A stretch of DNA of 64,000 bases. It comes from Candidatus Vondammii sp. HM_W22. GTDB lineage: Bacteria > Pseudomonadota > Gammaproteobacteria > Chromatiales > Chromatiaceae. The position numbers and the translations under genes were made by a program. The notes beneath the pieces were generated by a model, which was not told the origin of the DNA, did no database searches, and worked only from the letters and a program-made list of their open reading frames with translations. Position 1 is the first letter of the stretch, and the number at the start of each line of letters is the position of its first letter. Below are positions 34,868 through 45,739 of the stretch, one piece after another. Location of the stretch: assembly GCF_022530855.2 (NCBI RefSeq), contig NZ_CP099567.1, positions 2,170,001 through 2,234,000 of the forward strand, given 5' to 3'.

Positions 34868-34995
34868 AAGTTCGTGAATTCCCGATTATTTCTGAAAAGA
34901 GGATTATAAACCGGTTTATGCAATCGAGATTAGTCAAAACTAAAAAAATTCTCTGCATCTCATAATTCAAATTGTTCCAGGATAGTCACTACTTA

Positions 34996-35714
34996 GGATC
35001 TATTAACACTAATTCAGTGCATCAATGATAAGTGCAAAATGAATAAAAACATGAATACAGCATCCAATTTGTCAAAGCGTGAGAAAATATGACGAAATCC
35101 TTTCAAGCGGCGGAACAACGGGAACAATACCCGGATCAAATACCAATTGTCGGGTTTCATCGCCTTCGTAGGCCTTCTCCACAATCACCTGAGTACCTCC
35201 CCAGCTATTGTTTTTAAGGGCTTTAAGCAATTTGCTTCCTTCAGGCTCATCATCAGCTTGTCAGGGATACAATGAAAATGTCACTGCTGTTTGAGCATCT
35301 GCTACAACCCTATGAATTTTGGTTGTCCATCCGGCTCGTGATTTACCGATAAGTTGTTCACCGTTTTTTTAATACGCCCGTACCATCTGGATGGACTTTT
35401 ACTGCCGTGCTATCGAGAGAAACATGATCAACTTGAATATTGGTGATGTCGTTCTCTTGCAGGTCAGAAAATACACAATCCAGAACGCCCTTTCTGGCCC
35501 AACAATTAACACGCGCACAAATACTGTGCCAATTGCCAAATTTCTTCAGTAATCCACGCCACTTGCAACCTTGTTCGACTACATACAAAACGGCATTCCA
35601 CACTTGTAAATTGGATATCTTTGCGTTGCCGCGTTGAATGGGCAGTGATTTTTCAGAAATCTAGTAATGCGCCGATGTAATTTCCATCAGTTTGTTCTAC
35701 CTTAAATTAGTGAT
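34996..35714 (-). mobile_element. IS5-family (IS427-like) element, eroded
   Basis: The minus strand encodes VWNAVLYVVEQGCKWRGLLKK and VDHVSLDSTAVKVHPDGTG, and in another frame LIGKSRAGWTTKIHRVV and GIVPVVPPLEGFRHIFSRFD, all typical of IS427-group transposases. Several frame breaks make it inactive. The left end begins GGATCTATTAACACTAATT after TA; the right end (near 35712) has a partially matching inverse, so it has lost its terminal bases. The end sequence matches that of the MITE at 41782. It lies upstream of mutL in the 34868-36400 non-coding gap. Confidence 0.65.
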
Positions 35715-36300
35715 AAGGAAAACTCTAAAAAACCGACAAAGGCCAATAGTCTCTAGCAAATCGGGAGAGCCCGGTATCTTCGCGCTCATTTTTCTGGCAA
35801 CATCCATATTCATACCTCGCTTCATCCGGCCAGCCACACCAATCGACGCATGTTGTACACCAAATTCATCATACCAACCAACTGGATCAACAGCTCTGAA
35901 AAGAGTTTATCGAAAAAGCCCCATTCTTTCAGGCGCTCACGATATACCCAAACTGTTTTGGCATCGGGCACCTTACCTTCCGGGCTCAGTCCAAGAAAAT
36001 GACAAACGCTATAGCGATCCCGAATCTGGAACTCTGTTTGATCATCGGGTAGATTGAGTAAATGCTGTAGGACCAACACCTTGAACATCGGTACCGCATC
36101 GTAAGGTGGATGCCCACCTTTACTGGGATCATTGTTTTTATAAACTGAGCCCAACAATATCCGAAAACCTCCCAGTCTCCGGTCCTTTCCAGCTTTGGCA
36201 GCGAGTCTCCCATCTGCTCAAGGACGTTAAGTCGGTCTTGATGATCAAAAAACGTTGAATTGGTTACTATGATCGCTGATTTTGGAAGATTTTTAGAGGC
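35715..36300 (-). mobile_element. IS5-family remnant (copy C) with internal deletion
   Basis: On the minus strand the N-terminal half of the copy A/B transposase (KLERTGDWEVFGYCW, RDRYSVCHFLGLSPEGK, KTVWVYRERLKEWGF) runs directly into the last codons of the same family (VGMMNLVYNMRRLVWLAG), so the central catalytic region is deleted. It also carries at least one frameshift near 36150. The two termini may still be close to intact, making this a MITE-like derivative. It abuts the IS427-like remnant at 34996. Confidence 0.65.
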
Positions 36301-39513: not shown

Positions 39514-41778
39514 TTATTTACCCGGCCTAACCAGCCCGCTCAGCCCCATATCCTCAAATGCATTCTCCATCAGCTCACGGACCTTACCAGCATCTTCCAG
39601 TCTAAGCGCAGCCTTCAGCAGATGGCGTGCCCGGGAGCGGCTGAAACTGCGCACCACCCACTTGACTTTGAGCAGACTGGCAGCGCTCATGCTGAGGCTG
39701 TCCACTCCCATACCAAGCAACAGTACCGAAGCCAGCGGATCGCCAGCCATTTCACCGCAGACACTCACCGGCCGATTGTAGACGGCCGCACCTTTGACAA
39801 TCTGCACCAAAGCTCTCAACACGGAAGGGTGCATTTCGTTATAGAGTTCAGCAACCATGGGATTGTTGCGATCGACCGCCAGTAGATACTGCGTCAGGTC
39901 ATTGCTGCCTACTGAGAGAAAATCGACCCGGCGGGCGATCTCCTCTATCTGATAAACCGCAGCAGGCACCTCGATCATCACACCCACCTTGGGCATGGTC
40001 ACGGCAGCTCCCTCATCTTCCAACTCATCATGAGCCCGCTGAATCAGCAGCAGCAGTTCATCCACTTCGGTAACCGAGCTGATCATTGGCAGCATAATCT
40101 GTAGATTATCCGTGCCGATAGCCGCTTTCAGCATGGCACGGATCTGGGTAAGGAAGATCTCCGGGTGATCAAGGGATATACGAATACCACGCCAGCCGAG
40201 GAAAGGGTTGGGCTCCTCCACAGGAAAATAGGGCAGCGGTTTGTCACCACCGATATCGAGGGTACGCAAGGTTACGGGGCGGGGAGCAAAGGTCTCCAGC
40301 ACTTTACCGTAGGCTGCCGTCTGGGTCGTTTCTCCCGGGAAGCGGTCACGGGCCATAAACAGAAATTCTGTGCGGTAAAGACCTATACCTTCTGATTCTG
40401 CGATACCCAGAGAGCTCATCTCAGAGACCAGGCCGGTGTTGAGATAGAGCGGTACTTTAACGCCGTCAGTCATCTCCGCCGGCTGACCGCGCAACCTATC
40501 CAGCTCACGCGACAGCTCACGCTCCTCTTTCGCCAGCCGCTGATACTCATTCCGAACAGAACCCGTAGGAGAGAGATAAACCCTGCCATGATAGCCATCG
40601 ATAATGACTTCACGCCCTTCGACACGGTTCACCGGAAGATCCTTCACTCCCATGACCGCAGGAACCCCCATACCCCGGGCCAGAATGGCCACATGGGATG
40701 AACCGGTCCCGGTTGCGGAAACGATCCCGGCCAACCGCTCTCTCGGAACTTCTGCCAACTGGGTTGCACTCACATCCTCACCCACCAGGATGGTCTGCTC
40801 GGGATAGATGACTTCCCGGGGCTTGTCACTCTGCAGATGCATCAGAATCCGCCGTCCCAGATCCCGAATATCGGAGGCACGCTCCCGCAGATAGACATCT
40901 TCCATATCATCAAATATTTTTGCGTGTACTTCTGTTGTATGGTGCAACGCCGTCTGTACCCACTCTCCCTGCTGAATACGCTCTATGGTCTGGCTTATCA
41001 GGGTGTCGCCACCCAGCATCAGCAGCAAGGCATCGAACAGGGCGCGATCTTCCGCAGGCAATCGCTTATCCAGATTCGCCTGAAGCCGCTTCAGCTCCAC
41101 TTCCACTTTGGCAACTGCAGCACGGAAAGCAGCAATCTCCTCTTCAGGATCTTCCACAGGTCTGTCCGGCACTGCTTCCAGATCAGCCTGCTGGTAAGCC
41201 ACCACCACTGAGCCGATGGCAACACCTGAGGCACTGGGGCGTCCCCGGAGAAAACGATCCGCCCCTCCGTTGGTAGTGTGTCCGCTGTCCAGTTCACCAC
41301 TCGCCCGTGCATGGGTTATGGCACCCGCCAGCTGGGCCGCCAGGGTAAAGAGAAAGGTAACTTCATCATCGTCGAATTGACGAGGCTCCTGTTGGCGTAC
41401 CACCAGCACACCCAACACCTTTCGATTCTGGATAATCGGCGCTCCGAGAAACCCGTGGTAGTGGGTTTCTCCCGTCGCGCTGACACGGAGATAGTGGGGG
41501 TGGTTGGTGGCATCGTCCAGATTAAGGGGTTCCGCCCGCTCACATACCAGGCCGATCAGGCCCCGGTGCAGAGGGAGGCTTACCTTGCCCACCGCCTCTG
41601 GCCGCAGGCCTTTGGTAGCACGCAGAACATGGCAACGCTGTTTGAAATCGGTCAGATAGACAGAGCAGACATCTGCATCGATTGCCTGCTTCACCTGTTC
41701 CACGATGATAGTAAGTGCCTCACCCAGGTCAGGCGCTCTATTTACTTTCTTGACAATGCGGTGCAGCGTCTCAAGCAT
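39514..41778 (-). CDS. ptsP: Phosphoenolpyruvate-protein phosphotransferase PtsP (EI-Ntr)
   Basis: First component of the nitrogen-related phosphotransferase chain, passing phosphate from PEP to NPr. The 754-residue product has an N-terminal GAF domain (about 1-165), the phosphohistidine domain with TGTGSSHVAILARGMGVPAV (about residue 345) and the PEP-binding TIM barrel with GLYRTEFLFMARDRFP and SVGSNDLTQYLLAVDRNNP. The ATG at 41778 gives the standard MLETLHRIVKKVN start. A MITE end lies only three bases upstream of this ATG, so its ribosome binding site must come from MITE sequence (AGG at about -10). In other gammaproteobacteria it lies just after rppH, as here. Confidence 0.95.
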   Translation of the reverse strand: MLETLHRIVKKVNRAPDLGEALTIIVEQVKQAIDADVCSVYLTDFKQRCHVLRATKGLRPEAVGKVSLPLHRGLIGLVCERAEPLNLDDATNHPHYLRVSATGETHYHGFLGAPIIQNRKVLGVLVVRQQEPRQFDDDEVTFLFTLAAQLAGAITHARASGELDSGHTTNGGADRFLRGRPSASGVAIGSVVVAYQQADLEAVPDRPVEDPEEEIAAFRAAVAKVEVELKRLQANLDKRLPAEDRALFDALLLMLGGDTLISQTIERIQQGEWVQTALHHTTEVHAKIFDDMEDVYLRERASDIRDLGRRILMHLQSDKPREVIYPEQTILVGEDVSATQLAEVPRERLAGIVSATGTGSSHVAILARGMGVPAVMGVKDLPVNRVEGREVIIDGYHGRVYLSPTGSVRNEYQRLAKEERELSRELDRLRGQPAEMTDGVKVPLYLNTGLVSEMSSLGIAESEGIGLYRTEFLFMARDRFPGETTQTAAYGKVLETFAPRPVTLRTLDIGGDKPLPYFPVEEPNPFLGWRGIRISLDHPEIFLTQIRAMLKAAIGTDNLQIMLPMISSVTEVDELLLLIQRAHDELEDEGAAVTMPKVGVMIEVPAAVYQIEEIARRVDFLSVGSNDLTQYLLAVDRNNPMVAELYNEMHPSVLRALVQIVKGAAVYNRPVSVCGEMAGDPLASVLLLGMGVDSLSMSAASLLKVKWVVRSFSRSRARHLLKAALRLEDAGKVRELMENAFEDMGLSGLVRPGK

Positions 41779-41781
41779 CTA

Positions 41782-42046
41782 GGACCTGTTAACACTAATC
41801 CAATAGGCTCTGCTGGGACTATTTTTTTGCCCAGCAAGGCAGAATGAGTAAGGTGTAGTAACTCTACATGAGCGAATGATAACGCGGCTGGGCGGAAAAA
41901 TAGCCCCAGCCCTTCGGGTTGCGCCTGAAAAAGTGCCACTCATCGTTGCTCGTCGCTCATTTGGAGTAACCAAACTACTCTCCTCGCGCCTTGATTGGCA
42001 CTTTTTCAGGCACAACAGAGCCTATTGGATCAGTGTTAACAGATCC
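41782..42046. mobile_element. MITE between rppH and ptsP, 265 bp
   Basis: The ends are 31-base near-perfect inverted repeats: GGACCTGTTAACACTAATCC and onward on the left, and GGATCTGTTAACACTGATCC and onward when the right end is read inward. TA flanks both sides. No coding sequence is inside; it carries a palindromic interior (for example GCCACTCATC...GGCACTTTTTC around GCCCTTCGGGTTGC). The first 19 bases match the end of the IS427-like element at 34996, suggesting that it was mobilised by that family. It separates rppH and ptsP, which normally form one operon. Confidence 0.75.
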
Positions 42047-42053
42047 TATAGGG

Positions 42054-42578
42054 TCAGCGACGATTTTGGCGCAGGTAGTTGGCACGTGAGCGCACCGGGG
42101 TGCCCTTGGGAAACAGTAATGGTGCCAGTTCCTCCAGCGCTCGACTGTAGACCCTCCATTTGAAATAGACCACCTCACGCAGAGGATGCCAGTACCTTAC
42201 CCAACGCCAATCATCAAACTCAGGTTTGGGGGAGCGATCGAGGCAGAAGCTCGTCTCACTACAGAGCACCCGCAACAGAAACCAGCGCTGTTTCTGGCCA
42301 ATGCAGAGTGGCTGGCAATGGTGACGGAGGTAGCGTTTTGGAAGCCGGTATTTCAACCAGTCTCCGGTCACACCCACCAGTTCCACTTGGTTTGGCTTGA
42401 GCCCAACCTCCTCTTCCAACTCCCTGAACATCGCCTGCTCTGGCGTCTCATCCTCATTTATACCACCCTGGGGGAATTGCCAGGCATTCTGCCCCACCCG
42501 GCGCCCCCAAAACAGCTGCCGATTATGATTGCAGAGAATAATGCCGACGTTAGGTCTGTAACCTTCAGAATCAATCAA
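42054..42578 (-). CDS. rppH: RNA 5'-pyrophosphohydrolase
   Basis: Nudix enzyme that removes pyrophosphate from triphosphorylated mRNA 5' ends and so starts RNase E decay. The 174-residue protein has the Nudix box [22 protein letters not shown] (positions about 38-59; split here by residue spacing) and the family segments QNAWQFPQ and YRLPKRYLR. The start is a TTG at 42578 giving the typical [13 protein letters not shown]-terminus; AGG lies seven bases upstream. The 3' end lies eight bases from the MITE. The motif length follows the normal GX5EX7REUXEEXGU pattern. Confidence 0.93.
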
Positions 42579-44104: not shown

Positions 44105-44526
44105 TTTTGTTTCCGGTGTTGATGTCGATTAATGGCTGGCAGTTACATTCTGGTCTTGAATACCAGAATAATCTGATTGCGCAGGGTCTTGATCAGGTTT
44201 AGCTGCTTGCTGGTCAGCGCAACACCCTGGGGAGTTTGATGATCGGCATAGATAAGCCCAAGAGGCCGCTGCCTGAGAATCAGTGGAAATACAAAAAACG
44301 ATCCCGCTTTGGATATTTTCCGATACCAGTCCGGAATATCTTTTTTAATTGTTCTCATGAGTATCGGCAATATAGAGGTCGGCGCCATTTTTCAGGGCGG
44401 CATGAAATACTGTGGACTGGTAGCGGATAGGGAAATGAAAACTACTCATAAAATCCTCAACGCCTTCATCAAGGCCCAGCCTGGCACTGACCTGATTCAG
44501 ATTCACCCTCTCATTGCTCTGGTCAA

Positions 44527-45739
44527 GTCGAACCGGACACATTCAATTGAGACAGTTCATAGTTAATCGGTGACAAACTACCATTGGCAGTGTGTAACCG
44601 ATCTTTGTTGTAGTAGCGGATGTAATCCGCGACATCGTACTTCATGTGCTCTCGTGTAGGTTGAGACACTTTTAAAATCCAGTCATGCTTCAGGCTGCTA
44701 AAAAAACGTTCAACCACCACATTGTCCCAACAAGCACCTACATCTCCCATCGACGAGCGTAGGCCATGATTTTCTAATAAATGTCGGTGCGACTTGCTCG
44801 TGTACTGTGACCCGCGATCACGGTGAAACACTAAACCCTTGTTAGGTTGGCGTAGGTTAACGGCTTTTATCAACGCTTTCTTCACCAGATTAGTCGTCAT
44901 GCGTTTATCTATGGACCAGCCAACAATACGCCGTGAATATAAATCCATGACAATGGCTAAATACATCCACCCTTCGCCTGTTCTTAAGTAGGTAATATCA
45001 CCGGCCAAAACATCATTGGCGGCGACCGGATTAAAGTTCTTATTCAACAAGTTATCTGCTACTGCATCGCTATGCTGACGGTTTGTCGTGACTCTATAGG
45101 CGGTACGCTGTGTGACGCGCAGCCCCTAGCTTACGCATCACAGTTTTCGTTCGATAGCGGCCAATAGAGAAGCCTTCTTCGCGCAGTTTTTTCATTAGCT
45201 CTCTGGAGCCCAGACTTTGGCGGCTTGCTGCAAACAAGGCTTTAGCTCGGCGATAAAGCTGTAACTCTTCAGCGCTGATTAACAGGGCAGGCCGCTTAAC
45301 CCACGCGTAGTAGCTTGATCGACTCAATCCAACCATTTGGCATAAGCGGTTAACCGGCAACTGGGCTGAGTGACACTGAATAAACTGATGCTTTATTTCA
45401 TTTCTTTGGCGAACAAGGCTGAAGCCTTTTTTAATATGTCCTTTTCGATACGTAGGTGCTTATTCTCTCTGCGTAATCGGTGAAGCTCCGTCCGCTCATC
45501 GGCTGATAACGCACCGTCTTGTTTTGAGGCTTCAATCTTTGTTTTACAATCATAGAGTTGATTTGCTCGAATACCCAGTGTATTTAGCCGCCTCAGCGAC
45601 CGAATAACCTTGATCTGTCACCAATCCAATCGCTTCTTCTTTAAAGGCTTGAGGGTAACTCTTGTAAACTCGTTTTTGATTCATATCCGCTACAATAACC
45701 AACGGTATTGTCTTTTATTCAAGTGTCCAGATCAATTAA
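44527..45739 (-). mobile_element. IS3-family element (IS3/IS150-like), frameshifted
   Basis: The orfA part (about 45685-45365) starts MNQKRVYKSYPQAFKEEAIG and is frameshifted in the KYTG region. The orfB part is split between 45360-45094 (VGLSRSSYYAWVKRP, RELMKKLREEGFSIG) and 45050-44523 (AGDITYLRTGEGWMYLAIV, FHRDRGSQYTS, VERFFSSLKHDW), with a frame break near 45090. The right end is GTGTCCAGATC (inverse GATCTGGACAC); the left end GAACCGGACAC is a partial match. No clear target duplication is visible. It sits in the GAF region of the kinase pseudogene, on the same strand. Confidence 0.8.

Follow-up and report, generated by a model that had tools for sequence, protein, structure and literature searches.

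The short junction between rppH and ptsP in Candidatus Vondammii sp. HM_W22 holds a miniature inverted-repeat transposable element (MITE) that ends three bases before the ptsP start codon and is predicted to bury this start in a stable RNA stem. In the window (the whole stretch of 64,000 nucleotides that was analyzed), the element measures 265 bp by direct reading of the sequence. The earlier note, which had placed a 265-bp MITE with 31-base ends in the rppH–ptsP gap, three bases from the ptsP ATG, was exact to the base. The junction element is a MITE: it is short and non-coding, carries terminal inverted repeats, has dispersed copies, and shows a TA target duplication. It is thus a mobile element of an ordinary kind, and its effect on ptsP is a prediction. 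We consider it fairly probable that an IS427-like MITE inserted here and ended the coupling of rppH and ptsP, that its stem buries an AGGU stretch, and that ptsP translation became lowered and dependent on processing while the gene is still used. The features of the junction are as follows.

39514–41778, minus strand: ptsP, encoding EI-Ntr, 754 aa, intact frame (NF008283, 812 bits)
41780–41781, no strand: TA, ptsP-side half of the presumed target duplication
41782–42046, no strand: 265-bp body of the MITE, non-coding, with 57 further independent copies as homologues
41782–41812, plus strand: 31-base terminal inverted repeat at the left end, next to the ptsP start
41784–41787, minus strand: AGGU, the sole Shine–Dalgarno (SD)-like stretch found before ptsP, within the left end; paired in the modelled read-through RNA
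41918–41942, plus strand: inner inverted repeat, first arm
41992–42016, minus strand: inner inverted repeat, second arm
42016–42046, minus strand: 31-base terminal inverted repeat at the right end, facing rppH
42047–42048, no strand: TA, rppH-side half of the presumed target duplication
42054–42578, minus strand: rppH, RNA pyrophosphohydrolase, with its stop TGA at 42056–42054 (NF001937, 250 bits)

The terminal inverted repeats are identical at 29 of 31 positions when the left end (GGACCTGTTAACACTAATCCAATAGGCTCTG) is compared with the reverse complement of the right end (GGATCTGTTAACACTGATCCAATAGGCTCTG). A repeat search extended these arms to 41 nt (41780–41820 and 42008–42048, 88% complementary) and also returned the inner inverted repeat, whose arms are 92% complementary. 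As single-stranded DNA, the region 41776–42056 folds at –75.3 kcal/mol, compared with –33.2 ± 3.8 kcal/mol for 200 shuffled sequences (z –11), which is beyond chance. According to the ORF list of the window, no ORF of at least 80 aa lies wholly inside the element, and two plus-strand ORFs overlap it from one side. An Rfam scan of 41500–42300 gave a single match at chance level. The three bases between the element and the ptsP ATG read CTA on the plus strand and TAG in the mRNA. Only the G adjoining the ATG is certainly native on the 5′ side of the start; the TA may be either target copy, and the remainder belongs to the element.

Matches to the element were found in 10 of 55 genomes searched as relatives, the own genome included. 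A single full-length match lies on the one contig (3.35 Mb) of the own genome, and full-length copies with 81–91% identity occur in the congener G001 as well as in G008, G013, and G030. The end sequence is also present in two Candidatus Thiodiazotropha MAGs. Altogether, 22 full copies align end to end; with 40 further copies the set comprises 62. Four pairs among them each stand for one insertion shared by two genomes, so that 58 independent copies from six genomes remain. Directly before the left TA, 57 of these 58 copies have C or T, and directly after the right TA, 56 have A or G, so that the preferred target of the family is YTAR; the window copy, with a T in the latter position, belongs to the two that deviate there. 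Copies L009 and L018 carry a changed outer base. Two copies in G008 (L008 and L028) have clean empty counterparts in G116 (L233 and L243, respectively), with flanks 95–98% identical. The empty sites contain a single TA, whereas the filled sites contain two, which identifies the TA as the duplicated target. Two further flank pairings (L140 and L214) were left out of this evidence because their sites involve other end-like sequence. Lone element ends also exist in the own genome, one of ∼39 bp at C1:3132870 and another at C1:275364. At the former (C1:3132870–3132909), the edge of the lone end coincides with the TAG stop of the preceding frame, and another ATG-opened frame comes next.

To place the junction among relatives, we searched 96 genomes of the family for ptsP and took the best 30 loci, of which 29 come from relatives (95 other genomes) and one is the own locus. 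The earlier note had described rppH and ptsP as usually forming one operon. This is stated for Escherichia coli in a passage of PMC4635465, and rppH adjoins ptsP in 28 of the 29 best-scoring relatives' loci (L061, in which no rppH was found, was left out of the junction count), but the gap ranges from a 1-base overlap to 175 nt and falls below 10 nt in 6 of 28. None of the 28 relatives with a readable junction carries the MITE there. A diverged family fragment (∼72% identical) occurs upstream of rppH, outside the junction, in G116 (L066, 514–654) and G008 (L067, 4634–4774).

The earlier note had also named the alternative that the sequence is an ancestral intergenic region, recognizable by the same spacing and sequence in many relatives. 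What speaks for it is the congener G001 (L046), where the 52 nt before ptsP contain a hairpin with 16-base arms that masks a good SD sequence (AAGGAG) right before the start, which reads CTAG-ATG. This hairpin, however, has no sequence relation to the MITE, and its arm, searched in the own genome (G000) and in G001, was found only as its own two arms; a repeat family behind it was therefore dropped as a candidate. Together with the 28 junctions that lack the element, the homologues at other sites and the empty sites leave an ancestral intergenic regulatory region extremely improbable and close to refuted. On these comparisons of sequence, the junction sequence is a real insertion, and the transposition probably took place after the split from the one sequenced congener, a coarse age given by a single other genome of the genus.

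Removal of the element and one TA yields a reconstructed pre-insertion site of the form TGA-CCCTATAG-ATG, with a gap of 8 nt. A crude test finds no SD-like stretch in this site, and likewise none in 10 of the 29 relatives. With the rppH stop so near, native ptsP was probably translated through its proximity to that stop. In the present sequence, the best SD-like stretch before ptsP is AGGU (5-nt spacing, –2.5 kcal/mol), which is weak and belongs to the MITE end; the family consensus end offers only AGG at this position. The modelled read-through RNA (41740–42070) folds at –158.9 kcal/mol (z –13.3), and in it the AGGU has an unpaired probability of 0.00, its partner being the opposite end of the element. 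Opening the start region would cost 27.3 kcal/mol in this RNA, compared with 9.5 kcal/mol in the reconstructed site. For RNAs with 5′ ends inside the element (41915, 41880, 41840, and 41815), the cost is 11.8–14.5 kcal/mol, and the AGGU is still mostly paired. Strong masking thus appears to be confined to the full read-through RNA, whereas RNAs lacking the far arm are predicted to be only slightly worse than the reconstructed site. These values describe equilibrium thermodynamics; ribosomes, the co-transcriptional order of folding, or processing may free the start.

The proposal of the earlier note that ptsP now uses MITE sequence as its ribosome-binding site holds as far as position is concerned, the SD position now being occupied by element sequence. 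As a working site it fares less well, since the AGGU is paired with a probability of ∼1 in the modelled read-through RNA. A stronger version, in which the element end does no more than take the place of the native ribosome-binding site, with normal translation of ptsP from it and decoupling from rppH, is possible though unlikely. It gains from the AGGU standing at a 5-nt spacing where the reconstructed site has nothing, and from other copies that lie close to likely starts, namely of frames for an AlgH-like protein (5 nt), a histidine kinase (2 nt), a DnaQ-like exonuclease (8 nt), SspB (6 nt), and, farther out, a GTPase (11 nt); those at 2–8 nt indicate that such insertions survive. It is weakened by the predicted pairing of the AGGU, which extends to the four element-internal RNAs, and by the copies' nearness to starts being no greater than that of random intergenic YTAR sites. 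An ATG-opened frame begins within 15 nt of 10 of 58 copies and 139 of 1515 YTAR sites (p 0.06), and of 5 of 43 copies and 69 of 728 sites when only intergenic positions are counted (p 0.6). Within 8 nt, the corresponding counts are 5/58 and 79/1515 without the intergenic filter and 3/43 and 31/728 with it. All control sites stem from 20 stretches of 20 kb in G116, whereas the copies come from six genomes. The idea that copies seek start codons was rejected, random YTAR sites being about as often near starts. How genes survive insertions this near to a start codon is a question that the ptsP junction opens.

Since the folding model has every base of the AGGU paired with the opposite end, it is more likely that the element breaks translational coupling and masks ptsP than that it offers a free ribosome site. 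This also bears on the suggestion that the MITE may uncouple ptsP from rppH. Judging from the 8-nt reconstructed gap, tight translational coupling would indeed have been lost. Transcriptional uncoupling is not supported, since a scan for sigma-70-like consensus sequences and intrinsic terminators found neither in the element.

Taken in order, the mechanism that we favor would run as follows. Before the insertion, ptsP would have lacked an SD sequence of its own, and most of its translation would have come from ribosomes that had just completed rppH, 8 nt upstream. The short junction would then have received a non-autonomous element whose ends resemble those of the IS5 family (IS427-like, with TA duplication), and this translational coupling would have ended. 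In the co-transcript, pairing of the two ends would give a highly stable stem in which the weak AGGU is hidden. Translation of ptsP would be lowered and would depend on RNA processing, for example a cut of the stem by RNase III, or on RNAs without the opposite arm. Despite the insertion, ptsP would stay in use. Such a junction would be a clean case of a mobile element in an operon whose own sequence takes over translation initiation for a regulatory gene (EI-Ntr).

Several findings concern whether ptsP is still needed. Its frame is intact and its product is 76% identical to that of the congener. The own genome contains one HPr domain and one EIIA domain. The ptsP search counted six matches in it, among which ptsP itself was listed. 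The enzyme I paralogue beside the HPr gene (G000:C1:398475–398717; locus L246) has suffered frame changes and lacks its middle part, whereas its counterpart in the congener can be read for 581 aa with no stop. Among the matches identified, PtsP thus looks to be the only enzyme I that the cell still has intact. With HPr and EIIA present and the paralogue broken, PtsP is probably needed, which argues that it is made, at whatever level.

An intact frame would equally be expected if the element were a neutral passenger that changes nothing measurable, with ptsP having its own unrecognized promoter or start. The many broken insertion sequence (IS) transposases in the own genome fit this as well, in that the genome tolerates insertions. 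We nevertheless hold it to be distinctly unlikely, as no sigma-70-like promoter was found between the element and the ATG. Moreover, in most of the best-scoring relatives the homology of PtsP begins at residue 1 or 2, so that this ATG is the likely start. A bolder extension of the masking mechanism builds on the parallel with the congener hairpin: the ptsP start of this genus would be held shut by an SD-masking hairpin, reached twice by unrelated sequences, and the MITE would be a domesticated translational gate on what is apparently the only intact enzyme I. This parallel comprises two genomes only, and we regard the idea as very doubtful.

The arms of the element covary. Across 56 copies (27 distinct rows; L018 and L136 were left out because an indel shifts their arms), 94.4% of cells are paired and 14 columns have changed on both sides, compared with a mean of 89.2% (maximum 90.4%) and a mean of 4.8 columns (maximum 10) in 500 shuffles, although relatedness of the copies inflates these counts. 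The pattern fits either a need for pairing or a homogenizing of the ends, and by itself does not imply an RNA function.

The TA duplication pointed first to a parent of the IS630 type. This candidate was rejected in favor of IS5: the own genome has 15 matches to PF13358, all partial or interrupted, and G013 has one, and none of these 16 loci bears an element-like end within 2 mismatches of 16 (the nearest has 3). An end common to the MITE and to IS elements with an IS5-family transposase was found at two places. One is a relic in the same window:

34994–35718, minus strand: IS5-family insertion sequence relic, frames broken, with the related end TAGGATCTATTAACAC (PF13340, E 1.8e-12)

The end at 34994 borders minus-strand transposase pieces reaching ∼35718, and the relic is possibly kin of the mobilizing element. 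The other is a better preserved IS in G027 (L187), in which TAGGGCCTGTTAACGC directly precedes a PF13340 ORF (E 5.2e-24) that is followed by a second frame; its end TAGGGCCTGTTAACGCA differs from the MITE end at 2 of 17 positions. The far end of the L187 element was not found, and L187 and the window relic have one matching end each. Because the outer end resembles that of IS elements with a PF13340 transposase, we assign the element as a putative IS5-family-derived, IS427-like MITE, a name that reflects the likeness of the outer end. Reading ends and ORFs in 30 lone-end stretches of G116 (85 end matches) yielded no IS with both ends matching. A PF01609 parent was also dismissed, G116 having one such gene without a matching end, as was a parent at the contig ends of G008, where in ten ends read the sequence stops inside the MITE itself. 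The window contains further transposase fragments at 35822–36157 and 44523–45050 (IS5/IS1182-like; IS3 family).

Several known systems resemble the window MITE in part. RUP of Streptococcus pneumoniae is moved in trans by an IS transposase and is kin of IS630, whereas the kin found for the window MITE belongs to the IS5 family. As described in a section of PMC2229807, RUP is likewise small and intergenic with terminal TA; it measures 107 bp with 9-bp ends, compared with 265 bp and 31-base ends here, and has stop codons in all six frames. The Correia/NEMIS elements of Neisseria share with the window MITE a short length, long ends, terminal TA, and highly paired transcripts, and passages of PMC10969869 and PMC2229807 report that RNase III cuts their transcripts at the element ends. 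Their host is different, the likeness is one of architecture with no sequence kinship claimed, and the stem of the window MITE is known from a computed fold. Members of the IS427 group of IS5 (e.g. IS1248) are described in PMC3281130 as making duplications that are mostly of 2 bp (4 in ISPha1) and as encoding their transposase in two frames that overlap and carry a frameshift motif; the MITE has its TA duplication, and L187 has a two-frame PF13340 transposase with a matching end. Rows of a table in that paper give ends of 13–21, whereas the MITE has ends of 31 or more and no transposase. ERIC of enterobacteria is also a small palindromic element that alters the stability of adjoining transcripts; the effect described in the relevant part of PMC10969869, from which the likeness is drawn, is an RNase E site at the 3′ ends of genes. 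Our literature searches found nothing linking MITEs with Thiodiazotropha, nor anything joining MITEs, Shine–Dalgarno, bacterial genomes, and terminal inverted repeats; the papers pairing MITE with Sedimenticola are, by their titles, on other subjects.

At its edge, the element produces a stop codon anew. Among all copies, 17 of 116 element ends supply the TAG that closes a frame with 100 open codons, compared with 170 of 3193 YTAR sites (p 0.0002), a control that includes in-gene sites. The idea that copies sit on stops and rebuild TAG was dropped, as insertions at such in-gene sites would be lost. Whether AGG-carrying ends that recreate a TAG stop make the MITE gentle to operons is a further question opened by this junction. 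Finally, micro-units of ∼29–33 bp (like GGGCCTGTTAACACTAATCCAATCGGCCC between TA) are dispersed alone at L107, L113, L118, and L123 (G116) and at L092 and L082 (G013), and give the impression that the outermost part of the MITE has turned into an element of its own.
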